This document shows, piece after piece, positions 18,359 to 39,228 of a DNA stretch of 64,000 bases. Each line of letters starts with the position of its first letter. Position 1 is the stretch's first letter. This stretch comes from Nocardioides dokdonensis FR1436 (GTDB lineage: Bacteria > Actinomycetota > Actinomycetes > Propionibacteriales > Nocardioidaceae). The notes under the pieces are model-generated. The model was not told where the DNA came from, did no database searches, and saw only the letters and a list, made by a program, of their open reading frames with translations. The translations under genes were made by a program, and so were the position numbers. Location: the NCBI RefSeq assembly GCF_001653335.1, contig NZ_CP015079.1, forward strand, positions 4,030,001 to 4,094,000, read 5' to 3'.

Positions 18359-19602
18359 GATGTCTCCTGGCTGGTCGTGAGGGGCTTGGTCCACGCCCAC
18401 TGGGTCACGGCGCGCGCCGGCGTCCACCCGGTGAACGAGCCCAGCGGAGCCGCGTGCTCGACCGAGGTGCGCGTCAGCTCGCCGCCGTGCACGGCGTACG
18501 CCGCCGCCAGCAGCTGCTCGCTCTCGACCGTCACCCCGTGCGCCACCAGCCGACCGCCCGGCCGCAGCCGCTCGCGACACAGGTCCAGCAGCCCCGGGGC
18601 GGTGGCGCCGCCGCCGACGAAGACGGCGTCGGGAGCGGCCAGGTCGTCGAGGACCTCGGGCGCCCGGCCGGTCGTCACCGACAGTGCGGGGACGCCGAGC
18701 CGCGCCGCGTTGCGCGCGACCCGCTCGGCCCGCTCGGCATCGGCCTCGATGGCGATCGTGCGGCAGCCCGGGTGGGCCCGCATCCACTCGATCCCCACCG
18801 ACCCGGCGCCGGCGCCGACGTCCCACAGCAGCTGGCCGGGCTGGGGCGCCAACCGCGCCAGCGCCGCGGCCCGCAGGTCGCGCTTGGTCAGCTGACCGTC
18901 GTGCTCGTAGGCGTCGTCGGGCAGCCCGGCCACCCACGAGCCGACGACGGGTCCGCGCAGGTCAAGGGCGACCACGTTGAGGTCGGGCACCTGGACCGAC
19001 AGCGCGTCGTCCCAGGCCCCGGCGGCGGCGTCGAGTCGACGCTCACGCTCGCCGCCCAGGTGGCTCAGCACGCTCATCGCGGACCCGCCGTAGCCGTGCT
19101 CGACCAGCAGCCGCGCCAGCACCGCGGGGGTGCCGGCGTCGGAGGAGAGCACGACGAGCCGACGGCCGGGGGCGAGCTCGCGCACTACGGTCTCGGGACG
19201 GCGTCCCACGACCGTGACGACCTGGACGGTCGCTGCGTCCCAGCGCATCCGGGCGCAGGCCAGGGCCACCGACGAGACCGCCGGGTGCACCTCGACCGCG
19301 TCGGCGCCCAACAGCTCGACGAGGGTGCTGGCGATCCCGGAGACGAACGGGTCGCCGGAGGCCAGCGCCACCACCCGGCGCGTGTCGTGCTGCCACAGCA
19401 ACGCCGGCAGGCCCTCCCGCAGGGGCGAGGGCCACGCCAGGCGCTCCTGGTCGACGTCGGCGGGCAGCATCGCCAGGTGCCGCTCCCCACCGAGCACCAC
19501 CTCGGCCTCGAGGATGCGGCGCTGGTGCGCGCGGGAGAGGCCCGACCAGCCGTCGTCGCCGACGCCGATCACGACCACGGTGGACGGGCTGGTGGGGGGC
19601 AC
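18355..19602 (-). CDS. cobL: precorrin-6Y C5,15-methyltransferase (decarboxylating), CbiE-CbiT fusion
   Basis: CobL methylates C5 and C15 and removes the C12 acetate carboxyl of precorrin-6B to give precorrin-8X. The N-terminal CbiE-like methylase (about 1-200) begins VVVIGVGDDGWSGL and holds LASGDPFVSGI. The C-terminal CbiT-like methyltransferase (about 215-415) has the SAM loop LLWDVGAGAGSVGIEW at 258-273. An in-frame upstream extension exists, but the GTG at 19602 gives 415 aa and lies 8 bases after a TAGCGT box, so a leaderless start fits. No riboswitch precedes this pair, unlike the other cob units. Confidence 0.94.
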   Translation of the reverse strand: MPPTSPSTVVVIGVGDDGWSGLSRAHQRRILEAEVVLGGERHLAMLPADVDQERLAWPSPLREGLPALLWQHDTRRVVALASGDPFVSGIASTLVELLGADAVEVHPAVSSVALACARMRWDAATVQVVTVVGRRPETVVRELAPGRRLVVLSSDAGTPAVLARLLVEHGYGGSAMSVLSHLGGERERRLDAAAGAWDDALSVQVPDLNVVALDLRGPVVGSWVAGLPDDAYEHDGQLTKRDLRAAALARLAPQPGQLLWDVGAGAGSVGIEWMRAHPGCRTIAIEADAERAERVARNAARLGVPALSVTTGRAPEVLDDLAAPDAVFVGGGATAPGLLDLCRERLRPGGRLVAHGVTVESEQLLAAAYAVHGGELTRTSVEHAAPLGSFTGWTPARAVTQWAWTKPLTTSQETS

Positions 19603-19610
19603 GGGTGGTG

Positions 19611-19620
19611 ACGCTATCGT
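19611..19620. promoter_or_regulatory. overlapping divergent -10 boxes for cobL and the chlID operon
   Basis: ACGCTATCGT contains TATCGT on the plus strand (19615-19620) and TAGCGT on the minus strand (19616-19611). The two -10 boxes share the central TA step, so a single AT-rich spot can open for transcription both ways: leaderless cobL to the left and the riboswitch-led chlID operon to the right. Confidence 0.5.
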
Positions 19621-19636
19621 GACGCCACAGCCACGA

Positions 19637-19780
19637 GGTGCCCCGAGGCCCGGTCGAGACAAGCCGGTGCTGAGGGGAGAATCTGGGAAGCCGGTGAGAG
19701 TCCGGCACAGGCCCGCTGCGGTGACCTGGAGGGTGCGAGAGCGCTGGTCCAGGAAGTCCGAAGACCGGCCTCGAGGCGCC
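19637..19780 (+). promoter_or_regulatory. cobalamin riboswitch upstream of chlID-bluB-cobO-cobB-cobC/T-cobS
   Basis: The outer helix P1 pairs 19637-19650 (GGTGCCCCGAGGCC) with 19767-19780 (GGCCTCGAGGCGCC). Inside are the AdoCbl core elements GGGAAGCCGGTGAGAGTCCG, ACAGGCCCGCTGCGGTGA and GTCCGAAGACCGG. It ends about 18 bases before the GGGAG ribosome site of chlID. Confidence 0.93.
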
Positions 19781-19810
19781 TATCCGATGGCGGACGAGCG
19801 GGAGCCTCCC

Positions 19811-21838
19811 ATGCCACTGCACTACCCTTTCAGCGCTGTCGTCGGCGCCGACGAGCCCGACGGCCCCTTCGGCGAGATGGCCCTCGCCCTCCTCCTCACC
19901 ACGATCTCCCCCGAGGTCGGCGGCGTGCTGGTGCGCGGCGAGAAGGGCACGGCGAAGTCCACGATCGTGCGGGCCCTGGCCGACGTGCTGCCACCGATCG
20001 ACGTGGTGGCCGGCGACCGGTTCTCCAGCGACCCGCGCGACGACACCCACCTCTCCCCCGACGGCCCGTTCGCGGCCGACGTCGAGGTGGAGACCCGTCC
20101 GGTGCGCCTGGTGGAGCTGCCGGTCGGGGCCTCGGAGGACCGGGTGCTGGGCTCGCTGCACCTCGAGCGCGCCCTGTCCGAGGGCCGCACCGAGTACGAG
20201 CCCGGGCTGCTGGCCCGCGCCCACCGCGGCCTGCTCTACGTCGACGAGGTCAACCTGCTGCACGACCACCTCGTCGACCTGCTGCTGGACGCCGCGGCGA
20301 TGGGCCGGGCCACGGTCGAGCGCGACGGCGTCTCGGTCTCGCACGCGGCCCGCTTCGTGCTGGTCGGCACGATGAACCCCGAGGAGGGCGAGCTGCGGCC
20401 CCAGCTGCTGGACCGCTTCGGGCTGACCGTCGAGGTCGCCGCGCCCCGCGAGCCGGCCCTGCGCGCCGAGGTGGTGCGCCGCCGGATGGCCTTCGACACC
20501 GACCCTGGCGCGTTCAGCGCGTCGTACGCCGCTGCGCAGCGCGCGCTCACCGACCGCATCCAGGCCGCCCAGGCCCTGGTCGGGCGCGTCGAGCTGGGCG
20601 AGGGCGCGCTGATGAAGATCGCCGAGGTCTGCGCGGCCTTCGACGTCGACGGCCTGCGCGCCGACATCGTCACCGCCCGCACCGCGGTCGCGCACGCCGC
20701 CTGGCACGGCCGGGACCGGGTGCGCCTCGACGACATCCGGGCCGCCGCCCGCCTGGCCCTGCCGCACCGGCGCCGCCGCAACCCCTTCGACGCTCCCGGC
20801 ATGGACGAGGACCTGCTCGACCAGGTGCTCGGCGACGACCTGCCCGAGCCGCCCGACCCGCCCGAGCCCCCGGAGCCCGACCCCGACGGCCCCAGCGAGC
20901 CCGGCGACCCCGACGGGACGTCATCCGCTGAGGACGAGGGGACGTCCCGCCCGCATGACGTCCCGGGCGACCCCGAGCCCGACCCCGAGCCCGAGCCCGG
21001 CCCGTCCGCACCCGCACCCTCCGCGCCCACGAGCACCCCCGTCGGCGCCGGCCAGCCCTACCGCACCCGCCTGCTCACCGCGTCCGGCACCGGGGCCGGC
21101 GAGTCCGGGCGCCGCAGCCGGGCGATCACCGAGCGCGGTCGTCGCGTCGGGGCCTCGAGCACCGGCCGCGGCCCGGTGCACCTGCTGGAGACCGTGCGCG
21201 CCGCCGCACCCCACCAGGCCGCCCGGGGACGCAGCGGCGGCCGGCTGCTGCTGCGCTCCCCCGACCTGCGCTACGCGACCCGCGAGGGCAAGGAGTCCAA
21301 CCTCGTCCTGTTCTGCGTCGACGCGTCCGGCTCGATGGCCGCCCGGCGCCGGATGGAGCAGGTCAAGACCGCGATCCTCTCGCTGCTGCTCGACGCCTAC
21401 CGCCGCCGCGACAAGGTCGGTCTGGTCACCTTCCGGGCCGGGAGCGCCGAGCTCGCGCTTCCGCCCACGCACTCCGTCGACATCGCCGCCACCCGCCTCG
21501 AGGAGCTGCCTGCCGGGGGGCGCACCCCGCTGGCCGAGGGGCTGCTCGAGGCCGCCCGGGTGCTCGCCGTCGAGCGGCTGCGCGACCCGCGCCGTCGCCC
21601 GCTGCTGGTGGTGGTCACCGACGGCCGCGCCACCCACGGTCGCGACGCCGTGGACCGCTCCCGCCTGGCCGCCGACCTCCTCGTCGCGCAGGGCGTCGCC
21701 AGCGTGGTCGTCGACTGCGAGAGCGGGGCGATGCGGCTGGGCCTGGCCGGTGTCCTGGCGACCCGACTGGGTGCCGAGCACCTGCCGGTCGGTGAGGTGA
21801 GCGCCGAGGCGCTGGCCGACGTCGTCCGCGCCGCCTGA
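19811..21838 (+). CDS. magnesium chelatase-like ChlI/ChlD fusion (cobalt chelatase motor subunit)
   Basis: AAA+ motor plus VWA protein (675 aa) resembling BchI and BchD fused. In actinobacteria such proteins are thought to drive CobN, replacing the CobS/CobT subunits of proteobacterial cobaltochelatase. Walker A is RGEKGTAKST at 42-51; Walker B LLYVDEVNLL is near 141-150. A Pro/Asp/Glu-rich linker spans about 347-416. The VWA domain has the MIDAS pattern DASGS near 504-508 and later VVVTDGRATHG. The ATG at 19811 has GGGAG upstream; an in-frame ATG at 19787 is an alternative. It heads the riboswitch-led operon while its partner cobN heads the opposing one. Confidence 0.9.
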   Translation: MPLHYPFSAVVGADEPDGPFGEMALALLLTTISPEVGGVLVRGEKGTAKSTIVRALADVLPPIDVVAGDRFSSDPRDDTHLSPDGPFAADVEVETRPVRLVELPVGASEDRVLGSLHLERALSEGRTEYEPGLLARAHRGLLYVDEVNLLHDHLVDLLLDAAAMGRATVERDGVSVSHAARFVLVGTMNPEEGELRPQLLDRFGLTVEVAAPREPALRAEVVRRRMAFDTDPGAFSASYAAAQRALTDRIQAAQALVGRVELGEGALMKIAEVCAAFDVDGLRADIVTARTAVAHAAWHGRDRVRLDDIRAAARLALPHRRRRNPFDAPGMDEDLLDQVLGDDLPEPPDPPEPPEPDPDGPSEPGDPDGTSSAEDEGTSRPHDVPGDPEPDPEPEPGPSAPAPSAPTSTPVGAGQPYRTRLLTASGTGAGESGRRSRAITERGRRVGASSTGRGPVHLLETVRAAAPHQAARGRSGGRLLLRSPDLRYATREGKESNLVLFCVDASGSMAARRRMEQVKTAILSLLLDAYRRRDKVGLVTFRAGSAELALPPTHSVDIAATRLEELPAGGRTPLAEGLLEAARVLAVERLRDPRRRPLLVVVTDGRATHGRDAVDRSRLAADLLVAQGVASVVVDCESGAMRLGLAGVLATRLGAEHLPVGEVSAEALADVVRAA

Positions 21839-22572
21839 TGCCGGCTCCCGAGACGGCCCCCGGGACGGCACCGATGTCGGTCTACGAGGCGATCGCGCGG
21901 CGCCGCGACGTGCGCGCGGAGTTCACCGGCGAGGCACCCGACGACGCGACCCTGACCCGGGTGCTGGCCGCGGCCCACCGCGCCCCCAGCGTCGGCATGA
22001 GCCAGCCCTGGGACTTCGTGGTCGTGCGCGACCCCGCGACCCGCGCCCGGTTCGCCGAGCACGTCGCCACCGAGCGGGCGGCGTACGCCGCCGGGCTGGA
22101 GGGCGAGCGGGCCGAGACGTTCCGAGGCATCAGGATCGAGGGCATCCGCGAGTCCGGGCTCGGCGTCGTGGTCACCCACGACCCCGACCGCGGCGGCCCC
22201 CACGTGCTGGGCCGCGCCACCATCGACGACACCGGCCTCTACTCGACCTGCCTGGCCGTCCAGAACCTCTGGCTCGCCGCCACCGCCGAGGGCCTGGGCG
22301 TCGGTTGGGTCTCCTTCTACCGCGAGGAGCACCTGCGCGAGCTGCTGCACATCCCGCCCCGGGTGCGCCCGGTCGCCTGGCTGTGCGTGGGCCGCGTCAG
22401 CGCCCTCCACGACGTCCCCGACCTCGAACGGCACGGGTGGCGCGCCCGCCGGCCGCTGGACGAGGCGATCCACCACGAGAGATACCGGAGCCAGACATGC
22501 CGCAGGGCCGCCCCACCACCGTCCCCGACGACGGACTCACGACCGCCCAGCGCCGCTCGCTGCCGCTGCTGA
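21838..22572 (+). CDS. bluB: 5,6-dimethylbenzimidazole synthase
   Basis: Nitroreductase-fold enzyme (244 aa) that uses O2 to break down reduced FMN and form 5,6-dimethylbenzimidazole, the lower ligand of B12. Characteristic parts are YEAIARRRDVRAEF, HRAPSVGMSQPWDFVV, VLGRATIDDTGLYS and GLGVGWVSFYRE. The ATG at 21838 shares one base with the chlID stop. The family core ends near DEAIHHERY; the remaining 28 residues (Arg/Pro/Ser-rich) are read from DNA that is also the start of cobO, a 76-bp overlap. MSVYEAIARR, 12 codons in, is an alternative start. Its presence shows the cell makes its own lower ligand. Confidence 0.95.
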   Translation: MPAPETAPGTAPMSVYEAIARRRDVRAEFTGEAPDDATLTRVLAAAHRAPSVGMSQPWDFVVVRDPATRARFAEHVATERAAYAAGLEGERAETFRGIRIEGIRESGLGVVVTHDPDRGGPHVLGRATIDDTGLYSTCLAVQNLWLAATAEGLGVGWVSFYREEHLRELLHIPPRVRPVAWLCVGRVSALHDVPDLERHGWRARRPLDEAIHHERYRSQTCRRAAPPPSPTTDSRPPSAARCRC

Positions 22573-23111
22573 TGGTGCACACCGGCGACGGCAAGGGGAA
22601 GTCGACGGCCGCCTTCGGCGTCGCGCTGCGCGCCTGGAACCAGGGCTGGGACGTCGGGGTGTTCCAGTTCGTCAAGTCCGCCAAGTGGCGCATCGGTGAG
22701 CAGACCGTGCTCGAGCGCCTCGGCGAGCTGCACGAGGAGACCGGCGAGGGCGGGCCGGTCTCGTGGCACAAGATGGGCGCCGGCTGGTCGTGGAGCCGCA
22801 AGGAGGGCTCCACCGACGACCACGCCGCCGACGCGGCCGAGGGCTGGGCCGAGGTCAAGCGCGCGATCGCCGAGGAGCGCCACGACCTCTACGTCCTCGA
22901 CGAGTTCACCTACCCCATGGAGTGGGGCTGGGTCGACGTCGACGACGTGGTGACCACGCTGCGCGAGCGCCCGGGGCGTCAGTACGTCGTCGTCACCGGT
23001 CGACGCGCCCACCCGGCGCTGGTCGAGGCCGCCGACCTGGTCACCGAGATGACCAAGGTCAAGCACCAGATGGACCGCGGCCAGAAGGGCCAGCGGGGCA
23101 TCGAGTGGTGA
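22497..23111 (+). CDS. cobO: cob(I)yrinic acid a,c-diamide adenosyltransferase
   Basis: CobA/CobO/BtuR-type adenosyltransferase (204 aa) that attaches the 5'-deoxyadenosyl group of ATP to cobalt. The P-loop-like HTGDGKGKS is at 28-36, followed by FGVALRAWNQGWDVGVFQF. KMGAGWSWSRKEGS, VLDEFTYPMEWGW and the C-terminal TEMTKVKHQMDRGQKGQRG complete the family pattern. The ATG at 22497 has GGAG upstream although it lies inside bluB. The stop overlaps the GTG of cobB. Confidence 0.96.
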   Translation: MPQGRPTTVPDDGLTTAQRRSLPLLMVHTGDGKGKSTAAFGVALRAWNQGWDVGVFQFVKSAKWRIGEQTVLERLGELHEETGEGGPVSWHKMGAGWSWSRKEGSTDDHAADAAEGWAEVKRAIAEERHDLYVLDEFTYPMEWGWVDVDDVVTTLRERPGRQYVVVTGRRAHPALVEAADLVTEMTKVKHQMDRGQKGQRGIEW

Positions 23112-24472
23112 CCGGCCCCGCACCTGCGCGGCTGCCCCGCGTCGTGGTGGCCGCGCCGGGCACCGGGGCGGGCAAGACGACGGTCGCGACCGGGCTGATG
23201 GCCGCACTGACCCGGGCCGGGCACGAGGTCTCGGGGCACAAGGTCGGCCCCGACTACATCGACCCCGGCTACCACGCCCTGGCCTGCGGACGCCCCGGCC
23301 GCAACCTCGACCCGCACCTGGTCGGCGAGGACCTCCTCGCCCCCCTGCTGCTGCACGGCGCCCGGGGTGCCGACGTGGCCGTCATCGAGGGCGTGATGGG
23401 CCTGTACGACGGCCGCGTGGGGACCGCCGGCTTCGCCTCGACCGCCCACGTCGCAGGGCTGACCCGCAGCCCGATCGTGCTGGTCGTCGACATCTCCCGA
23501 TCCTCACGCTCGATCGGGGCCGTCGTGCACGGGATGGCGACCTACGACCCGGCCGTGCGGGTCGCGGGCGTCATCCTCAACAAGGCCGGCTCGCCGCGGC
23601 ACGCGCGCGAGGTCGTCGACTCGATCGTGCCGACCGGCGTCCCGGTGCTCGGCACGATCGGGCGCGACCAGGCCGTCGAGGCGCCCTCGCGGCACCTCGG
23701 TCTGGTGCCGGCCGCGGAGCGGGGCCTGGCCGCGGAGTCCCTGGACCGGCTGGCCGCGCAGGTGGCCGAGCACGTCGACCTCGACGCGGTGCTGGCCCTG
23801 GCGCGCTCCGCCCCCGACCTCGACGCGACAGCGTGGGAGCCCACCGACCACGTCCACCCGCCCGTGGGCGCGACCGGTCGGCCGGTCGTGGCGATGGCCG
23901 GCGGGCGCTCGTTCACCTTCCGCTACGCCGAGACCGAGGAGCTGCTGCGCGCGGGCGGCTGCGAGGTGGTCACCTTCGACCCCGCCGGCGACGCCGCACT
24001 GCCGCCCGGCACCCGCGGCCTCTACCTGGGCGGCGGGTTCCCCGAGGTGCACGCCGCAGCGCTGGGCGCGAATGCTGCCCTGCGCACCGAGATCGCGACC
24101 GCCGTGGCGGCCGGGGTGCCGACGGTCGCCGAGTGCGCCGGGCTGCTCTACCTGTGCCAGAGCCTCGACGGGGCGCCGATGGTCGGCGCGCTGCCGGCCG
24201 TCGCCTCGATGACCGAGCGGCTGACGTTGGCCTACCCCGAGGTGACCGCGGTCTCGGACTCGCTGCTGACCCGGGCCGGCGAGCGGGTCACCGGGCACGA
24301 GTTCCACCGCACCCAGGTGGAGCCGGTCGCCGGCCCGGCCCCGGCCTGGAGCGGCGAGGGGCACACCGTCGGCTTCACCAGCGCCAGCCTGCACGCGGCG
24401 TACCTGCACGTGCACTGGGCCGGGCACCCGCAGCTGGCGCAGCGCTTCGTGGACGCGGTGCACCGTGGCTGA
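23108..24472 (+). CDS. cobB: hydrogenobyrinic/cobyrinic acid a,c-diamide synthase
   Basis: ATP- and glutamine-dependent amidase (454 aa) acting on side chains a and c of the corrin ring. The N-terminal dethiobiotin-synthetase-like domain has APGTGAGKTT at about 14-23, HKVGPDYIDPGYH and EGVMGLYDG. The C-terminal class I glutamine amidotransferase domain has the nucleophile Cys342 in VAECAGLLYL and GHEFHRTQV near the end. With CobN being the aerobic-pathway chelatase, the natural substrate is probably hydrogenobyrinic acid. A GTG at 23108 overlaps the cobO stop as GTGA. Confidence 0.95.
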   Translation: MTGPAPARLPRVVVAAPGTGAGKTTVATGLMAALTRAGHEVSGHKVGPDYIDPGYHALACGRPGRNLDPHLVGEDLLAPLLLHGARGADVAVIEGVMGLYDGRVGTAGFASTAHVAGLTRSPIVLVVDISRSSRSIGAVVHGMATYDPAVRVAGVILNKAGSPRHAREVVDSIVPTGVPVLGTIGRDQAVEAPSRHLGLVPAAERGLAAESLDRLAAQVAEHVDLDAVLALARSAPDLDATAWEPTDHVHPPVGATGRPVVAMAGGRSFTFRYAETEELLRAGGCEVVTFDPAGDAALPPGTRGLYLGGGFPEVHAAALGANAALRTEIATAVAAGVPTVAECAGLLYLCQSLDGAPMVGALPAVASMTERLTLAYPEVTAVSDSLLTRAGERVTGHEFHRTQVEPVAGPAPAWSGEGHTVGFTSASLHAAYLHVHWAGHPQLAQRFVDAVHRG

Positions 24473-26594
24473 GCACGACCGGGCTCCGAGCGACCCGCTG
24501 CGCCACCACGGCGACGCCGAGGTCCGCGGCACCGGCCTGCTCGACCTGGCCGTCAACGTCCACCCCGGGCCCCGGCCGGCCTGGCTCGAGACCGCGCTGC
24601 GCGCCAGCCTCGACGACGTTGGCGCCTACCCCGACCCGGGCGCCGCCGAGCACGCGATCGCCCTGCGCCACGACCGGCCGGCCGAGGAGGTGCTCGCCAC
24701 CGCGGGGGCAGCCGAGGCCTTCTCGCTGGTGGCGCGGCTGCGACCCTGGCGCCGCCCGGTGGTGGTGCACCCGCAGTTCACCGAGCCGCACGCGGCGCTC
24801 GAGCGGGCAGGGCACCGGGTCACCACCGTGCTCACCCGCGCCGAGAACGGCTTCGCGCTCGACCCGGGAGCCGTGCCGCCGGACGCCGACCTGGTCGTGG
24901 TCGGCAACCCCACCAACCCGACCGGACGGCTGCACCCCGTCGACGACCTGCTCGCCCTGCGCCGCCCGGGCCGGCTGGTCGTCGTCGACGAGGCCTTCAT
25001 CGACACCGTGCCCGGCGAGCGCGGCACCCTGGCCGGCGCGCCGCCCGAGGGCCTCGTGGTGCTGCGCAGCCTGACCAAGCACTGGTCCATCCCGGGGGTG
25101 CGGGCCGGCTACCTGCTCGGCGCCGCGGGTGACGTCGCCGCCCTGCGCCGCGGCCAGGTGCCGTGGTCGGTCTCCACCACGGCCGCCGCAGCGATCCAGG
25201 CGTGCTGCACCGACGAGGCGCTCGCCGAGGCCGAGCGGCGCGCACACCTGATCACGCAGTGGCGCACCCACCTGGTCGCCGCCCTCGCCGGGCTGGGGAT
25301 CCGCACGCTGCCCTCGCAGACGTCGTTCCTGCTGGCCCGGCTGGGCCCCGACGGGCGGGCGCACCTGCGCGAGCACGGCATCGCCGTACGCCGCTGCGAC
25401 ACCTTCCCCGGCCTCGACCCCGGGTGGGCGCGGATCGCGGTCCGCCCGCCCGGCACCACCGACCACCTCGTCCACGCCCTGCTGGCGCGGCCGATCGCCA
25501 GCCCCACTCCAGGAGGACCCATGTCGTCACCCCGCCCGCTCACCGCGCCGGACAGCGCCAGCGCCGGCGCCGCCGCCGAGCGGCTCGCCGGCCTGGCCGT
25601 CCCGGCCGGTGCGCTCGGGCGGCTGGGCGAGCTGGGCGTGTGGCTCAGCGGCGTCCAGGGCCAGTGCCCGCCCCGCCCGCTCGACGACGTGCGCCTGGTG
25701 ATCTTCGCGGGCGACCACGGGGTCGCCGGGCACGGCGTCTCGGCCTACCCGCCGGCGATCACTGCGGCGATGGTGCGCACATTCGTGGCCGGGCGCGCCG
25801 GCGTCAACGCGCTCGCCGCCGCGCACGACGTGCGGGTGCGGGTGCTCGACGTCGGCGTCGACGACGACCTCGAGGGCCTGCCTGCCGAGGTCAGCGCCGA
25901 CAAGGTCCGCCGCGGCAGCGGGGCCATCCACCTGGAGGACGCGCTGAGCGCCGAGGAGACCCAGCAGGCGCTGGCCGTGGGCCGTCGGGTGGCCGAGCGC
26001 GAGATCGCCGAGGGCGCCCAGCTGCTGCTCAGCGGCGACATGGGCATCGGCAACACCACCCCCGCGGCGGCGCTCGTGGCCGCCGGGCTCGGGCTCGGGG
26101 CCGCCGACGCCGCGCTCGTGGCCGGGCGCGGCACCGGCGTCGACGACGCCGGCCTCGACCGCAAGACCGCCGTGCTGGCCGAGGCCCTGGCCCGGGTGGG
26201 CGAGCGCGCCACCGACCCCGTCGAGACGCTCACCGCCCTGGGCAGCGCCGACCTGGCGGCCACCGTGGGCTACCTGCTGGCCGCGACGCAGGCCGGCGTG
26301 CCCGTGCTGCTGGACGGGCTGATGTCGGTGGCCTGCGCGCTCACCGCCGAGCGGATCGCCCCCGGCACCGCCGCGTGGTGCACCGCCGGGCACCGCTCCC
26401 CCGAACCGGCCCAGTCGCTGGCGCTGGCCCACCTCGGCCTCGAGCCGCTGCTCGACCTCGGGATGCGCCTGGGCGAGGGCAGCGGCGCGGTCACCGCGGT
26501 GCCGGTGCTGCGCAGCGCGGTGTCGCTGCTGCGCGACGTCGCCCTGCTCAGCGAGCTGATGCCCGAGGCGCCGACGGGTCCGGCCGGTGCCTGA
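24465..26594 (+). CDS. cobC-cobT: CobC-type aminotransferase fused in frame to CobT (nicotinate-nucleotide:DMB phosphoribosyltransferase)
   Basis: A single 709-aa reading frame with two complete enzymes. Residues 1 to about 342 are a fold-type I PLP protein like CobC/CobD (threonine-phosphate decarboxylase): VNVHPGPRPAWL, VVGNPTNPTGRL, VDEAFIDTVPG and the PLP lysine 205 in SLTKHWSIPGVRAGY. Residues 353-709 are a full-length CobT: FAGDHGVAGHGVSAYPP, SGDMGIGNTTPAAA and CTAGHRSPEPAQ. Only about 10 linker residues separate them, and they are encoded by a perfect ribosome site before an in-frame ATG at 25521. So one long fusion, or the fusion plus free 357-aa CobT, may be made. The GTG at 24465 overlaps cobB by 8 bp. 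A lost stop codon or a sequencing error at the junction could also explain it. Confidence 0.9.
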   Translation: MAEHDRAPSDPLRHHGDAEVRGTGLLDLAVNVHPGPRPAWLETALRASLDDVGAYPDPGAAEHAIALRHDRPAEEVLATAGAAEAFSLVARLRPWRRPVVVHPQFTEPHAALERAGHRVTTVLTRAENGFALDPGAVPPDADLVVVGNPTNPTGRLHPVDDLLALRRPGRLVVVDEAFIDTVPGERGTLAGAPPEGLVVLRSLTKHWSIPGVRAGYLLGAAGDVAALRRGQVPWSVSTTAAAAIQACCTDEALAEAERRAHLITQWRTHLVAALAGLGIRTLPSQTSFLLARLGPDGRAHLREHGIAVRRCDTFPGLDPGWARIAVRPPGTTDHLVHALLARPIASPTPGGPMSSPRPLTAPDSASAGAAAERLAGLAVPAGALGRLGELGVWLSGVQGQCPPRPLDDVRLVIFAGDHGVAGHGVSAYPPAITAAMVRTFVAGRAGVNALAAAHDVRVRVLDVGVDDDLEGLPAEVSADKVRRGSGAIHLEDALSAEETQQALAVGRRVAEREIAEGAQLLLSGDMGIGNTTPAAALVAAGLGLGAADAALVAGRGTGVDDAGLDRKTAVLAEALARVGERATDPVETLTALGSADLAATVGYLLAATQAGVPVLLDGLMSVACALTAERIAPGTAAWCTAGHRSPEPAQSLALAHLGLEPLLDLGMRLGEGSGAVTAVPVLRSAVSLLRDVALLSELMPEAPTGPAGA
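25511..25523 (+). promoter_or_regulatory. internal ribosome site and start codon of CobT
   Basis: AGGAGG at 25511-25516, four bases before an in-frame ATG at 25521, inside the cobC-cobT reading frame. The product from this ATG (MSSPRPLTAPD...) would be 357 aa, the normal CobT length. It is the strongest Shine-Dalgarno match I noticed in the whole cob locus. Confidence 0.75.
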
Positions 26595-27351
26595 CGCCTG
26601 GCGCCTCGCCGTCGGCACCCTGACCGCGCTGCGGGTGCCGGCACCGCGCACGGTCACCCCGGTCGTAGCCGGCCGCGCGATGCTGCTGGCCCCGGTGGCG
26701 GTGCTGCCGCTGGGCCTGCTCGTGGCCGGGCTCGGCCTGCTCGGTGCCTGGCTGTCCCTGCCCCCGCTCGTGGTGTCGGTCCTCGCGGTCGGGGCGCTGG
26801 CCGCCGGCAGCCGGGCCCTGCACTGGGACGGGCTCTCCGACGTCGCCGACGGGCTGAGCGCCTCCTACGACCGCGCGCGGTCGCTGCAGGTGATGAAGTC
26901 CGGCACCTCCGGGCCCGCCGGCGTCGTGGCCACGGTCGTGGTGCTGGGCACCCAGGCCGCTGCCCTGGCCTCGCTGCTCACCACCACCCGGGGCGCGGTC
27001 GTCGCCGGGCTGCTGGTCTGCGTCTCCCGCGCCGCGCTCGCGCTGTGCTGCCTGCGCGGCGTCCCGGGCGCGCGCCCCGACGGCCTGGGCGCGGCGTACG
27101 TCGGCACCGTGCGGCCGACGGCCGCGCTCGCGCTGTGGCTGGTCGCAGCCGGTCTGCTGGTCCTGGCTGCCGGCTGGTCGGGCCTCGTCGCCGCCGCGCT
27201 GGCGCTGCTCGTGGTGGCCGTCCTGCTGCACCGCGTCGTGCGTCGCTTCGGCGGCGTGACCGGTGACGTGCTCGGCGCCGCGGTCGAGCTGGCGCTCGCG
27301 GCGCTGCTGGTCGGCGTGCTGGCCGGGCCGCCGCTCGGTGCGCCGTGGTGA
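26587..27351 (+). CDS. cobS: adenosylcobinamide-GDP ribazoletransferase (cobalamin synthase)
   Basis: Integral membrane enzyme (254 aa) that joins adenosylcobinamide-GDP and alpha-ribazole (phosphate) to make adenosylcobalamin (phosphate). The N-terminal LTALRVPAPR and the Asp-rich ALHWDGLSDVADGL motif at about 78-91 are the family signature, followed by KSGTSGPAGV and about six hydrophobic segments. The GTG at 26587 overlaps the cobT stop by 8 bp. The stop is only 8 bases from the stop of the convergent cobU. Confidence 0.95.
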   Translation: MPDAWRLAVGTLTALRVPAPRTVTPVVAGRAMLLAPVAVLPLGLLVAGLGLLGAWLSLPPLVVSVLAVGALAAGSRALHWDGLSDVADGLSASYDRARSLQVMKSGTSGPAGVVATVVVLGTQAAALASLLTTTRGAVVAGLLVCVSRAALALCCLRGVPGARPDGLGAAYVGTVRPTAALALWLVAAGLLVLAAGWSGLVAAALALLVVAVLLHRVVRRFGGVTGDVLGAAVELALAALLVGVLAGPPLGAPW

Positions 27352-27359
27352 CCTGCCGG

Positions 27360-27887
27360 TCAGAGGCGCAGGACCCGGCCCGCGACCACGAGGTGCACCT
27401 CGTCGCAGGCGGCCGCGACCCGCTGGTTGGCCGTGCCCAGCAGGTCGCGGAAGAGCCGGCCGGAGCGGTGCTCCGGCACCACGCCGAGCCCGACCTCGTT
27501 GGTCACCACGACCACGTCGTGCGGGCAGGCGCGCACCGCGGCCGCCACGGCGTCCAGGCGGGTCTCGACGAGGTCCGTGACCGCCTCGGTCGGCTGCTCC
27601 CAGGCCTGCTCCTCGTCGAGCAGCCCGGTGAGCCAGGTGCCCAGGCAGTCGACGAGCACCGGCCGGTCGGCCGAGGTCAGGGCCCCCGCCACGTCGCGGG
27701 TCTCGCGCGTCGTCCACGCCGCGGGACGCCGCTGCCGGTGGGCCTCGATGCGCGCGGTCCAGTCGGGGTCGTCCTGCTCCTGCGGCGTGGGGCCCGGGGC
27801 GACGTAGGTCGCTGCCCGCTCCCCCACCAGCGCCTCGGCGTGGCGCGACTTGCCGGAGCGGACGCCACCGGTGACGAGAACCTTCAC
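27360..27887 (-). CDS. cobU: adenosylcobinamide kinase / adenosylcobinamide-phosphate guanylyltransferase
   Basis: Bifunctional CobU (175 aa) that phosphorylates adenosylcobinamide and then transfers GMP from GTP. The P-loop TGGVRSGKS is at 6-14. RIEAHRQRRP holds His50, in the position of the guanylylated histidine. VLVDCLGTWL and VVVTNEVGLGVVPEH follow. The GTG at 27887 is fixed by GGAGG 6 bases upstream and by the protein start MKVLVTGG. It lies on the strand opposite to cobS and cbiB, downstream (in transcription sense) of the cobN-to-cobK operon. Confidence 0.94.
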   Translation of the reverse strand: MKVLVTGGVRSGKSRHAEALVGERAATYVAPGPTPQEQDDPDWTARIEAHRQRRPAAWTTRETRDVAGALTSADRPVLVDCLGTWLTGLLDEEQAWEQPTEAVTDLVETRLDAVAAAVRACPHDVVVVTNEVGLGVVPEHRSGRLFRDLLGTANQRVAAACDEVHLVVAGRVLRL

Positions 27888-27898
27888 GAGGACCTCCA
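27888..27898. promoter_or_regulatory. shared divergent ribosome-site palindrome between cobU and cbiB
   Basis: Only 11 bases separate the GTG of cobU (27887, minus) from the GTG of cbiB (27899, plus). GAGGACCTC in this junction reads GAGG on both strands, so it can serve as ribosome site in both directions. There is no space for a promoter of either gene. Confidence 0.6.
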
Positions 27899-28855
27899 GT
27901 GCTGAACGGATCGAGGGGCCGGGCGGTCGGGCTGGCGCTGGGCTACGGCCTCGACCGCGCCCTCGCCGACCCCGCACGATGGCATCCCGTGGCCGGGTTC
28001 GGCACCCTGGCCGCCCGCCTGGAGCAGACGACGTACGCCGATCGCCGCAGCGCCGGCGTGGTCCACGTGGCGCTGCTGGTGGGCGCGGGCGTGGCCGTCG
28101 GCGCGGCGGCGGAGCACGGCGCCCGGCACCGTCCGGTGGCGCAGGCGCTGCTCACCGCCGCGGCGACCTGGACCGTGCTCGGCGGCACCACGCTCGACCG
28201 GGAGGCGGCCGCGGTCGGGCGGCTGCTCGAGGAGGGGCGGCTGCCCGAGGCCCGCACCCAGGTGGCGCGGCTGGTGGGGCGCGACACCCGCACCCTGGAG
28301 GTCGCGGAGGTGGCCCGCGCCGCACTGGAGTCGGTCGCCGAGAACACCTCCGACGCCGTGGTCGCACCCTTGGTGCTGGGCGCGCTGGTCGGGGTCCCCG
28401 GGCTGCTGGGCTACCGGGCGGCGAACACCCTGGATGCGATGGTCGGGCACCGCAGCGCCCGCTACGCCCGCTTCGGCTGGGCCGCGGCGCGTCTCGACGA
28501 CCTGCTCAACCTGCCCGGCGCGCGGCTCACCGCGGCCCTGGCCACGGTGCTCGGCGCGGACCCCGCGGCGAGCGTGCGGGCCTGGCGGCGCGACGCCGGG
28601 GCCCATCCCAGCCCGAACGCCGGCCCGGTCGAGGCCGCGTTCGCCGGCGCCCTGGGCGTGCGGCTGGGTGGTCGCACCGTCTACGGCACCGGCCCCGAGG
28701 CCCGGGTCGAGCTGCGGCCCCCACTCGGCGAGGGGCCCGCTCCGGCCCCTCACGACGTCGCCCGGGGCCGGCGGCTCGCGGCCCGGGTCGGCCTGGGGTC
28801 GCTCATCGTGCTGGCACCGATCGCAGCCAGGCCAGTGCGCCCTCGACGTCGCTGA
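27899..28855 (+). CDS. cbiB: adenosylcobinamide-phosphate synthase (CbiB/CobD)
   Basis: Membrane enzyme (318 aa) that attaches aminopropanol (phosphate) to adenosylcobyric acid. Family segments are [78 protein letters not shown] and [20 protein letters not shown]. The GTG at 27899 is the only reasonable start, since no other start codon lies before the conserved N-terminus. The 3' end overlaps the convergent cobK by 53 bp. It is on the same strand as the cobS operon but separated from it by antisense cobU. Confidence 0.95.
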
Positions 28856-29525
28856 CCGTCGCCACTCCTGCGGGCGGCTCGGGGCGGCGGACCACGACGG
28901 CGGGCACCCCGAGCGCGGCGGCGGCCTGCATCTTGGGCCAGGTGTGCGCGCCGCCTGAGTCCTTGGTGACCAGCACGTCGACCCGGTGCTCGCGCAGCAG
29001 CGCGCACTCGCCGTCGAGCTCGTAGGGTCCGCGGCTGCGCAGCAGCCGCCACCGTGGCGGCAGCACGACGTCGGGCTCGTCGACGACCCGGGCCAGCACG
29101 TCGTGGGCGGCCATCGGGCCGGTGAAGGCGCCGAGCTGCTGGCGACCGATGGTGAGGAAGGGCCGGTCCCCGAGCCCCGCGGCGAGGGCGGCGGCCTCGT
29201 CGTGGTCCCCGACCCAGTGCCAGCCAGCAGTGGGGTCGACCCACCCGGGTCGTTGCAGCCGCAGCAGCGGCACGTCGACGCCGGCGGCGTGCGCCGAGAT
29301 CGTGGCTGCGAAGGGATGCGTGGCGTCGACCACGGCGTCGAACGCCGCGGCATGGGCACGCAGCCCCTCGGCGCCGCCGAACCCGCCGATGCGCACCGGT
29401 CCCACCGGCAGCCGGGGTCGGGCGACCCGGCCCGCGAGCGAGGACTCGACCTCGACGCCGGCCCCGACCAGGGCGGCGGCCAGCGCCCGCGCCTCCCCGG
29501 TGCCGCCGAGCAGCAGCACCCTCAT
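28803..29525 (-). CDS. cobK: precorrin-6A reductase
   Basis: NADPH-dependent reductase (240 aa) that reduces the macrocycle of precorrin-6A to precorrin-6B. It starts [19 protein letters not shown], then [43 protein letters not shown] and [15 protein letters not shown], all CobK/CbiJ signatures. The ATG at 29525 shares one base with the cobQ stop (TGATG); a GTG one codon earlier is possible. It ends 53 bp inside the convergent cbiB, so no terminator can sit between them. Confidence 0.94.
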
Positions 29526-30955
29526 CACGGTGCCCCCGGCGGCAGGAAGGGCAGCCGGTCCGGGGCGCCGCGGCGGGCCAGGTCGAGCAGGGCGTCGACG
29601 TCGAGGTGGGTCTCGACCAGGTCACCGAGCAGGTCCAGCCGCCGCTCCCGGGCGGCCGGGAAGGAGACCGTCGAGGTGACGCCCAGCGTCCTGGCCAGGT
29701 ACGCCGCGCGGTGCGCGTCGTCCTCGAGCGCGCCGTGCACCATGGTCGCCTCCACGGCCCCGTCGCTCCGCTGGCCGGTGAGGCGGCCGTGGTGGATCTC
29801 GTAGCCGGCCGGCTCGTGGGCGCGCAGCACCTTCTCCGTGGTGAACTCGGTCTCGGCGTCGAGCAGGCCGAGGCCCTCGACGTCGGCGCCGGGGTCGCCC
29901 TCGACCCCGTGCGGGTCGCGGATCCGCCGACCCAGCATCTGGGCGCCGCCGCAGATGCCGAGCACCGGACGACCCGCGTGCGCGTGGGCCAGCACGGCGG
30001 TGTCGAGGCCGCGCTCGCGCAGCCAGGCCAGGTCGGCCAGCGTGGCCCGGGTGCCGGGCAGCACCACCAGGTCGGCGTCGGAGAGCGCGCGGGGCGTGGC
30101 GGCGAAGACCACGTCGAGCCCCGGCTCGAGGCCGAGCGCATCGACGTCGGTGAGGTTCGAGATCCGCGGCAGGCGCACCACGACCACCCGGGCCGCACCC
30201 GTCGCGGTCCGGGCCCGCCGACCCTCGAGGTCGAGGGCGTCCTCGGAGTCCAGCCACACGTCCGGGCTCCAGGGCAGCACGCCGAAGAACCGGCGCCCGG
30301 TCGCGTCCTCGAGCTGGGCCAGGCCGGGGCGCAGCAGGTCGAGGTCGCCGCGGAACTTGTTGACCACGAACCCGACCACCAGCGCCTGGTCCTCGGGCGC
30401 CAGCAGCGCGACGGTGCCCAGGAACGCGGCGAACACCCCACCCCGGTCGATGTCGCCGACGACCACGGTGGGCAGGACGGCGTGCCGCGCCAGCCCCATG
30501 TTCACGTAGTCCCCGGAGCGCAGGTTGATCTCGGCCGGGCTGCCGGCCCCCTCGGCGACCACCACCTCGTGGCGCGCCGCGAGGTCGTCGTACGCCGCGT
30601 GCGCGGCGTGCGCCAGGTGGGCGCGCCCGGTGGTCCACTCGCCCGAGGAGACCTCGCCGGCGGGGCGTCCGAGCACCACGACGTGGCTGCGCCGGTCGCT
30701 GCCGGGCTTGAGCAGCACCGGGTTCATCGCCGGCTCGGGCAGCACCCGCGCGGCCAGCGCCTGCACCCACTGGGCGCGCCCGATCTCGGCGGCGCCGCCG
30801 TCGGGGTGTGCGACCACCATCGAGTTGTTCGACATGTTCTGCGCCTTGTACGGCGCCACCGCGACCCCGCGTCGGGCCAGCGCGCGGCACAGTCCGGTGG
30901 TGACCACGCTCTTGCCGGCGTCCGAGGTGGTGCCGGCGACGAGCAGCCCGGCCAT
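29525..30955 (-). CDS. cobQ: cobyric acid synthase
   Basis: Glutamine-dependent amidase (476 aa) that amidates side chains b, d, e and g of adenosylcobyrinic acid a,c-diamide. The ATP domain shows [27 protein letters not shown] and [17 protein letters not shown]. The C-terminal amidotransferase domain carries Cys335 in [19 protein letters not shown] follows. The ATG at 30955 overlaps the stop of the upstream 2H phosphoesterase gene (TGATG). Upstream in-frame codons belong to cobF and cobN read in the wrong frame and are not part of the protein. Confidence 0.96.
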
Positions 30956-31524
30956 CAGGCACCAGCCGCGGGAGCGAGCGGGAACGAGTGCAGCAGCCGG
31001 CACCCGTCGCCCTGCCACCACTGCAGGTCGACCCGGTCGACCCGGGTGCGCACCGGCAGGCGGTCGGCCAGGTCGGCGCCCACCGAGCCCCGGGTGACCG
31101 GCGGGCCGCCCGGCGCCGGGCCGGGCCCGACCTGGTCGAGGCTGAGGTGCGGCTCGACGGCGCCGTACCTGCCTTCGTACGGCGGGTGGCCGGGGTAGGC
31201 GTCGACCACGAGAGCGGTCAGCGCCGCGAACGCCGCGAGCGGCCCCGGGCGCAGGTGCACCAGCCCGTTCGGGAAGACGTCGACCTCGCCCAGCCGGGCC
31301 TCGAAGGCCGGCACCGGCGCCAGCAGCGCGGCCACCCGCTCGAGGTCGGCGTCGGAGGGTGCCGGCACCCAGGGCGCGAGCACCGTCACGTGGGCGTGCA
31401 CGAACCCCGGGTCGGCGGAGACCCAGGCGGCGTCGTAGGCACGGGTGCGGGCCCGCACCCAGTCGTCCAGCTCCGGCACCGGCACGGCCAGGACGGTGTG
31501 CCCGGTGGTGGGGTGCCCGCTCAC
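30955..31524 (-). CDS. 2'-5' RNA ligase/2H phosphoesterase family protein
   Basis: 189-aa protein with the two HxTx-type motifs of the 2H superfamily: H45-V-T-V in FVHAHVTVLAPW and H126-L-S-L in VEPHLSLDQV. Family members act on 2',3'-cyclic or 2'-5' phosphodiester bonds of RNA or small nucleotides. The GTG at 31524 overlaps the cobF stop (GTGA) and its own stop overlaps the cobQ ATG, so it is tightly coupled on both sides inside a cobalamin operon. It has no known role in B12 synthesis. It could be a passenger, a housekeeping RNA enzyme, or a phosphodiesterase acting on an intermediate; the sequence does not decide. Confidence 0.85.
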   Translation of the reverse strand: MSGHPTTGHTVLAVPVPELDDWVRARTRAYDAAWVSADPGFVHAHVTVLAPWVPAPSDADLERVAALLAPVPAFEARLGEVDVFPNGLVHLRPGPLAAFAALTALVVDAYPGHPPYEGRYGAVEPHLSLDQVGPGPAPGGPPVTRGSVGADLADRLPVRTRVDRVDLQWWQGDGCRLLHSFPLAPAAGA

Positions 31525-35944: not shown

Positions 35945-36100
35945 GTGTTTCTCCTCGGGGTTCTCGCCCCTGGTCGGCGGAGGTCCCGTGGCCAGTGTCT
36001 GGCTACACCCGCTGCTCTCGCAGCGGGCTCACAGTGGCGGAACCGCCCCGGACTTCGACATCGCTGCCGGCACCGGGTTCCTGGTCACCACGAGACGTGT
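35945..36100 (-). promoter_or_regulatory. cobalamin riboswitch upstream of cobN (with 14-nt insertion)
   Basis: Minus-strand elements in order: GGTGACCAGGAACCCGGTG, AAGTCCGGGGCGGTTCCGCC, GCCACTGTGAGCCCGC, AGCCAGACACTGGCCACGGG, and a final GGGGCGAGAACCCC hairpin touching the GAGGAG ribosome site. Compared with the copy before btuF, the loop between CCGGTG and AAGTCCGG (the P5 apical loop) carries 14 extra bases (36056-36069). Confidence 0.93.
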
Positions 36101-36106
36101 GGGCGC

Positions 36107-36112
36107 AGCCTA
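36107..36112 (-). promoter_or_regulatory. -10 box upstream of the cobN riboswitch
   Basis: TAGGCT on the minus strand followed by GCGCC, placed a few bases past the btuD stop. The btuF riboswitch has TACGCT followed by GCGCC at the same relative place, so the promoter is conserved in both copies. Confidence 0.55.
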
Positions 36113-36115
36113 ACC

Positions 36116-38993: not shown

Positions 38994-38994
38994 C

Positions 38995-39138
38995 GCGTTT
39001 CTCCTCGGGGTTCTCGCCCCTTGCTCGACGGAGGTCCCGTGGCCAGTGTCTGGCTACGCCCGCGGTGCTGCTGCGGGCTCACAGTGGCGGAACCGCCCCG
39101 GACTTGCACCGGGTTCCTGGTCACCACGAGACGTGTGT
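38995..39138 (-). promoter_or_regulatory. cobalamin riboswitch upstream of btuFCD
   Basis: Minus-strand core GGTGACCAGGAACCCGGTGC then AAGTCCGGGGCGGTTCCGCC, ACTGTGAGCCCGC, AGCCAGACACTGGCCACGGG, and the GGGGCGAGAACCCC hairpin before the ribosome site. It is a canonical form and shares four long identical blocks (24-33 bases each) with the cobN copy. Confidence 0.95.
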
Positions 39139-39143
39139 GGCGC

Positions 39144-39149
39144 AGCGTA
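39144..39149 (-). promoter_or_regulatory. -10 box upstream of the btuF riboswitch
   Basis: TACGCT on the minus strand followed by GCGCC, in the same relative position as the cobN copy. A TAGGCT on the plus strand at 39163-39168 is a candidate -10 for the divergent ABM gene. Confidence 0.5.
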
Positions 39150-39228
39150 GCCCCGTCGCGCCTAGGCTCGTCGCGGCAGGTCCACGCTCCGGTCGTCGGG
39201 ACCGCCCGTCCGCACAGAGGAGAGAGTC

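Follow-up and report, generated by a model that had tools for sequence, protein, structure and literature searches.

How is a gene expressed when a gene of the opposite strand stands between it and the rest of its apparent operon? The cobalamin (cob) locus of Nocardioides dokdonensis FR1436 raises this question twice. We analyzed it within a 64,000-nucleotide stretch of DNA (the window; positions 4,030,001 to 4,094,000 of contig NZ_CP015079.1), which belongs to a 4.38-Mb genome in one contig. Read from 5′ to 3′, the gene order defined by open reading frames (ORFs) and sequence is cobS (+), cobU (−), cbiB (+) and cobK (−). A gap of 8 bp separates cobS from cobU, the starts of cobU and cbiB are 11 bp apart, and cbiB and cobK overlap by 53 bp at their 3′ ends; a preliminary description of this DNA had given the same spacings (8, 11 and −53), which proved accurate to the base. 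The explanation that we consider best overall, and somewhat probable, combines interleaved riboswitch-led cob operons with read-through of the plus operon through antisense cobU into cbiB and with a register that bridges cobU.

Both operons are indeed led by cobalamin riboswitches, as the preliminary description had assumed, and both aptamers score above the gathering threshold of RF00174. The plus operon begins with its riboswitch (19629..19787, +; 61.8 bits) and continues with chlID, bluB, cobO, cobB, an ORF matching both CobC and CobT, and cobS (26587..27351, +), its last contiguous gene, which was recognized by NCBIfam cobS models below their cut-offs (best E-value 2.7e-37). The minus operon consists of a riboswitch (35973..36107, −; 39.4 bits, the gathering score being 31.5), cobN, cobF, an unnamed gene (orfX), cobQ and, as the last contiguous gene, cobK (28803..29528, −; NF005968, 269.7 bits and TIGR00715, 151.5 bits, both above cut-off), in which codon 2 is ATG. 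The cobN aptamer was found by searching its stretch alone with permissive filters and was absent from the list of the whole-window search. Between cobS and cobK lie cobU (27360..27887, −; NF004469, 166.1 bits, cut-off 161) and cbiB (27899..28855, +; NF002276, 396 bits and TIGR00380, 169.6 bits, both above cut-off), the putative displaced last gene of the plus operon. By eye, a Shine-Dalgarno-like site for each gene can be read in the 11-bp spacer GAGGACCTCCA (27888..27898), GAGGA in front of cbiB and GGAGG in front of cobU, so neither looks leaderless in this genome. According to the accessible part of one survey, divergent overlapping genes are strongly underrepresented in prokaryotes (PMC2174442); the cobU/cbiB pair of the window lies 11 bp apart, without overlap.

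How, then, might cbiB be reached? The plus operon, from chlID to cobS, would be transcribed on through antisense cobU into cbiB. Ribosomes would restart at the cobS stop codon, translate the frame antisense to cobU and stop at the start codon of cbiB, and this bridge translation would carry both coupling and protection from Rho across the backwards cobU gene. The proposed bridge ORF (27348..27905, +), defined by sequence and by geometry in relatives, is antisense to all of cobU; its GTG shares 4 nt with the cobS stop, and its TGA begins 4 nt past the first base of cbiB. What is newly noted here is a cistron-like layout that the earlier reading had overlooked: the antisense-cobU frame is uninterrupted, a restart codon stands at the cobS stop, and the frame ends on the start of cbiB in most loci. 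We regard translation of the bridge as an evenly balanced possibility. Slightly more tentative is the view that the bridge peptide is functionless, that its translation shields the transcript from Rho and links cbiB to a far-off promoter, and that selection would act on the register between opposite-strand genes. In Mycobacterium tuberculosis, the accessible part of a study reports that Rho depletion caused a widespread increase in antisense transcription (PMC5379054).

Is the arrangement peculiar to one genome? A cbiB match was found in 101 of 147 genomes drawn from the genus, and the 100 stretches listed around cbiB matches, together with the window, gave 101 loci to sort: 19 with order A (divergent <cobU cbiB>), 12 with order B (cobS> cbiB> ... 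<cobU <cobK), 52 with order C (cobC> cbiB> without cobTSU in between) and 18 with other orders. A scan of GTDB r220 (one genome per species) for divergent cobU/cbiB ends used a pattern that is biased to GC-rich codons and recovered only six of the 19 known order-A loci. It returned 13 records (11 Nocardioides, with N. lianchengensis and N. rubriscoriae among them, one Marmoricola and one Actinomycetota assembly), of which six were new and usable, bringing the set to 25 loci. A later draw of 195 genomes of the genus, in which most of those sampled before recurred, added at least eight. The divergent pair is therefore present at no fewer than 33 distinct loci, and the full cobS> <cobU cbiB> <cobK order is visible at 29, which settles the question of conservation that had been raised earlier. 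In two loci (L205 and L214), cbiB and cobK do not overlap. Judged by eye from coordinates, tight divergence was also seen at the level of the order (117 genomes) in one genome of the same family (G213, carrying L156) and in five of another family, and at the level of the class (158 genomes) only in the window's genus; in four other genomes of the class the divergent pair lies hundreds of bases apart. The arrangement is real and conserved, and it is from this arrangement that we infer the mechanism.

Repeats of counted genomes were excluded (L153, L154, L157, L161, L163 and L164, as well as L165, L209, L211 and L213, which repeat L156, L162, L155 and L160, respectively), and so were L216, which has order B, and L158, where the cbiB start is unresolved at a contig edge and the register is still 2 modulo 3. 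Retained were L035, L206 and L214, with no cobS detected, and L152, whose contig begins at cobU; in L214 cbiB is split over two frames. Start codons were set by hand from listed candidates for L034, L035 and the loci of a genus of another family, g6 (family f2), among which those of L181 and L182 were chosen with a promoter box in view; the register does not depend on start-codon choice. The start of cbiB is ambiguous in L180, whose two counted antisense-cobU stops lie near alternative GTG starts. Two genomes carry two cob clusters each: G041 (L067 with order A and L096 with order B) and G407 (L214 with the divergent pair and L216 with order B).

Order B bears on operon membership. It has the same genes on the same strands as order A, with the positions of cobU and cbiB exchanged. 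Of the 12 order-B loci, 11 have a 4-nt overlap of cobS with cbiB, the exception being L098, where a gap of 4 nt lies between them; cobK overlaps cobU by 4 nt in all 12. The memberships guessed in the preliminary description, cbiB with cobS and cobU with cobK, are thus ordinary in relatives. A FastTree tree of concatenated cob proteins, in which several inner branches are weak, shows A and B intermixed, with at least four parsimony changes. A simple inversion as the origin of the exchange was ruled out on paper, since the strands are unchanged. In 9 of the 12 order-B loci, 1.2–7.1 kb separates cbiB from cobU, so that order A is no simple exchange of neighbors. Many order-C genomes have cobT> cobS> <cobU elsewhere as a convergent block, and 29 convergent cobS> <cobU loci of the same genus without cbiB behind, taken from 40 fetched stretches, served as controls; they represent a few related groups, so their counts are not independent.

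If ribosomes cross cobU as proposed, the frames on either side should be in register. The cobU/cbiB gap is 2 modulo 3 at all 25 loci, with sizes of −1, 2, 11, 14, 20, 23, 29 and 32, at all eight later loci, for which the prediction was recorded beforehand, and at all eight g6 loci in which cobS adjoins cobU. For cobS/cobU, the gap is 2 modulo 3 in 21 of 23 loci, 8/8 in g6 and 6/6 among the later loci, against 14 of 29 controls. The comparison of 29/31 with 14/29 gives a Fisher p of 1.2e-4, or 0.012 when only distinct gap sizes are considered. In 35 of 37 loci (21/23, 8/8 in g6 and 6/6 later), and in none of the 29 controls, the bridge frame has a start codon no more than 16 nt from the stop of cobS. 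The codon-aligned antisense-cobU frame contains no stop at any of the 25 and eight loci. At its other end, the TGA of this frame overlaps the cbiB start in 21 of 25 loci, lies 4 nt downstream in three, including the window, and 19 nt downstream in one; the overlap recurs in 7/8 g6 loci and 7/8 later loci. The start codons in the 2-bp class (L040, L048, L056, L063, L066 and L067) form the palindrome TCATCGATGA, in which the NTGA stop/start overlap reads both ways.

The hardest rival to set aside accepts read-through as real and takes the register and NTGA ends for neutral relics of old 4-nt overlaps, left after a strand-keeping rearrangement by duplication and reciprocal loss. Such overlaps are what order B displays (cobS/cbiB 11/12, cobK/cobU 12/12), A and B keep their strands while changing into one another at least four times on the cob tree, the 2-bp class has next to no spacer where an indel might change the register, and the cbiB/cobK register is likewise kept in order A. 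On the other hand, the register holds over cobU/cbiB spacers of 14–32 nt and cobS/cobU spacers of up to 86 nt, is mixed for the cobS/cobU pair elsewhere, and is lost at the two loci where cbiB has its own promoter box; moreover, with 1.2–7.1 kb between cbiB and cobU in 9 of 12 order-B loci, order A is no simple swap of adjacent genes. We consider this relic explanation unlikely, though worth keeping in view.

Could cbiB and cobU instead have promoters of their own? The actinobacterial −10 core is TANNNT, which in leaderless genes lies about 12 bp before the start, according to the accessible part of PMC3160421. As a positive control, TANNNT precedes the cobN riboswitch in 13 of 13 loci in which a B12 box was found by pattern; the control covered 20 loci with a cobN start, of which two had neither box and five had less than 25 nt upstream. 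Within 300 nt upstream of cbiB, the motif is absent from all 25 and all eight loci (0/33), and no cbiB box was seen at any locus with cobS in front of cbiB. Upstream of cobU it occurs in two of the 25 (L152 at 7 nt and L156 at 176 nt) and, at 7–8 nt, in four of the eight later loci. In the window, neither cobU nor cbiB has the motif: over 19500–29000 on the plus strand it is found only as TATCGT before the chlID-operon riboswitch (19615..19620) and at 19823, and over 36300–27300 on the minus strand only as TAGGCT of the cobN operon (36107..36112). Mononucleotide shuffles, which overstate the rate, led us to expect 11.4 occurrences upstream of cbiB and 6.9 upstream of cobU. The rate in the other cob genes of these loci is about 0.015 TANNNT per 300 nt on either strand, so absence of the box alone proves little and the promoter argument rests on the positive controls. 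The region 26400–29700 has no site resembling an intrinsic terminator or the sigma-70 consensus; its shuffles had almost none either, and none are expected at this GC content.

The convergent controls give a further comparison. By an ORF heuristic, cobU lies directly behind a co-directional ORF in 18 of the 29, and 16 of these 18 lack a box. Among the remaining 11, a box is present in four (L147, L150, L188 and L203) and absent from seven, namely L193 and the related L195–L200, the latter sharing a TATGCG-like site. Boxes for cobU are thus commoner where nothing reads into cobU. The read-through proposed earlier for both strands fares unequally: the cbiB side is supported by 0/33 boxes and by order B, and we consider plus-strand read-through from cobS to cbiB probable on this sequence evidence, while the cobU side is weaker, with boxes in 5/33.

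A second rival holds that both inner genes use unconventional promoters embedded in the opposing gene and that the operons are not functionally joined. Embedded cobU boxes do exist in relatives, TANNNT misses some likely promoters, and two inner parts of cobU on the minus strand (codons 75–89 and 150–164) have low synonymous variation in order-A loci, 0.22 and 0.29 versus a mean of 0.42. Set against this are the empty regions upstream of cbiB in 33 of 33 loci, the lack of added synonymous constraint at the 5′ ends of cobU and cbiB, and the position of the boxes that were seen for either gene, which sit 7–8 nt before the start. A search for a conserved embedded cbiB promoter, through TANNNT and through variation at synonymous sites close to the starts, found none. 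We judge joint use of embedded promoters to be quite unlikely.

The genus g6 provides a natural variant. The divergent pair is present in 10 of its 20 genomes, and cobK, where it can be seen, always lies on the plus strand (8/10, including six of the eight loci with cobS adjoining cobU). All eight of the latter have a −10 box 8 nt before cobU and no cbiB box within about 390 nt upstream. In seven loci (L166, L167, L169, L170, L179, L181 and L182), inspection by eye placed the cobU box inside the first cbiB codons, including codon CTA, apparently as a promoter embedded in the opposing coding sequence. The preliminary description's claim that there is no room for promoters was therefore too strong, since these relatives carry a cobU −10-like box in just this place. 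The two remaining loci, L168 and L183, have a cbiB box of their own, TACGGT, shortly before cbiB (in L183 by eye); cobS is 4185 bp away in L168 and out of view at a contig edge in L183. Their cobU/cbiB registers are 1 and 0 modulo 3, respectively. They are the only out-of-register loci among 43 divergent ones examined, and also the two with their own cbiB box.

Several observations weigh against the interleaved, bridged arrangement. Concerning the bridge, the register is broken and the restart absent in L048 and L063, the codon-aligned antisense-cobU frame is also open in 25 of 29 controls (a stop in 4/29), and antisense-stop depletion in cobU is modest, 0 versus about 4–5 expected, a figure of which one version omits the two stops of L180 in g6. 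Antisense stops in cbiB are not depleted at all (8 versus 9.5 expected). Furthermore, the cbiB/cobK overlap, which has no bridge start tied to cobK, has the same register in every one of 18 order-A loci, so a register can persist for causes other than a bridge. In the accessible part of PMC2174442, the commonest register accounts for 59% of divergent overlaps (50% when at least 5 nt long) and for 47% of convergent overlaps overall (18% when at least 5 nt); by our derivation, the register seen here is the commonest one for divergent overlaps and for convergent overlaps overall. Concerning promoters, a cobU box 7–8 nt before the start in 5/33 loci speaks against minus-strand read-through, and the prediction that the eight later loci would have none failed in half of them. 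TANNNT is an imperfect detector, and the two low-variation parts of cobU may mark a hidden element. In L168 and L183 there is no box near cobU, even though cobK is on the plus strand. Finally, the loci are kin, so p values overstate their independence. In the light of the promoter controls and of the register that cbiB and cobK keep, the bridge and the minus side seem less likely to us than they otherwise would.

On that minus side, the operon from cobN to cobK would perhaps be transcribed on through antisense cbiB into cobU in the window genome, and we see the chances for and against as equal. A frame antisense to cbiB is open (27884..29359, −), with a TGA that overlaps the cobU GTG (GTGA). 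On the minus strand the cobK stop has no consistently associated restart, and the stop counts gave no support to selection for an open antisense-cbiB frame. The antisense-cbiB frame is broken in two of five loci with a cobU box and in two of 28 without (Fisher p 0.10), which is a hint only. Were both read-throughs to occur, the transcripts would share at least 1.5 kb (27.35–28.86 kb), and a third rival builds on this: mutual antisense regulation, as in an excludon or the noncontiguous operon of Staphylococcus aureus, with polymerase collision and RNase III cutting balancing two operons that, in the window, are both riboswitch-led. Both arms serve one pathway, however, and relatives with a cobU −10 box or a plus-strand cobK keep the plus arrangement anyway; we regard such regulation as improbable.

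Might the ORF antisense to cobU encode a functional protein? The frame is open in 33 of 33 loci, but equally in most of the controls; in the window it has no Pfam match at E-values up to 1, and 4-fold degenerate sites of cobU vary nearly as much as those of neighboring genes (0.416 versus 0.418–0.482). This candidate was disfavored on the last two grounds, and it appears very remote.

How does the arrangement relate to known ones? Translationally coupled operon genes with 4-nt overlaps are a general kind, exemplified in order B. The bridge shares with them the NTGA stop/start overlaps at its ends and differs in that its linking cistron runs antisense to another gene. The type case of a noncontiguous operon is menE-menC-MW1733-ytkD-MW1731 of S. 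aureus, described in the accessible part of PMC7154746. There, as here, same-strand operon genes flank a gene of the opposite strand; the operon transcript is antisense to that gene in S. aureus and would be so in our case, where order B is the basis for assigning cbiB and cobU to their operons. In contrast to S. aureus, two operons of one pathway each enclose a gene of the other, and neither inner gene has a −10 box in the window. As for the inner gene having its own mRNA, a cobU TANNNT is lacking in the window and present in 5/33 loci and in 8/8 g6 loci with adjoining cobS. As for the antisense segment being untranslated, the open in-register frame with its restart and NTGA end points the other way, the segment being laid out as a translatable bridge. 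As in an excludon, long overlapping opposite transcripts would be expected; in an excludon, according to the same partial source (PMC7154746), one long transcript represses its neighbor, whereas here both arms serve one pathway. Read from sequence alone, the locus looks like a variant of the noncontiguous operon with reciprocal embedding. Within titles and the beginnings of abstracts, covering few subscription journals, we found no description of this arrangement in literature on noncontiguous operons, cobalamin overlap or antisense, Nocardioides cobalamin operons, or coupled antisense read-through.

If the proposal is correct, contiguity on one strand would not be enough to tell which genes form a bacterial operon, and open frames on the antisense strand, which are often dismissed when a genome is rich in GC, could serve as roads for ribosomes. 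The proposal would also explain, in a way open to test, how a long stretch of antisense RNA might escape Rho. Register across opposite-strand neighbors, a restart at the stop and a missing −10 box together make a sequence-only detector for more such operons.

A search of eight relatives does not establish riboswitch control of cbiB as a general feature. In their 18-kb stretches, at the gathering threshold, a riboswitch was found on the cobN side in 7/8 and on the plus side in 2/8 (L032 and L062); L034 had none. The plus genes of L055 are cobT-cobS-cbiB, and its two matches are both on the cobN strand; L056 has an Rfam aptamer though the cobN-leader pattern had shown none. These misses mean little, because many of the stretches stop close to the chlID leader and the cobN aptamer of the window was itself missed at this setting. 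By eye, the cobN and btuF leaders of the window (35945–36115 and 38994–39160, −) are near-identical riboswitch copies, which suggests a duplicated leader; a small insertion in the cobN copy may explain the absence of that aptamer from the whole-window Rfam results.

Two other genes of the locus deserve mention. The CobC- and CobT-matching ORF of the plus operon (24465..26594, +), which matches NCBIfam CobC over residues 12–339 and CobT over residues 357–697, likely encodes a CobC/CobT fusion protein. The gene orfX (30955–31524, −), between cobF and cobQ, stands beside cob genes in many relatives, where it sometimes adjoins cobT or cobU elsewhere in the genome.

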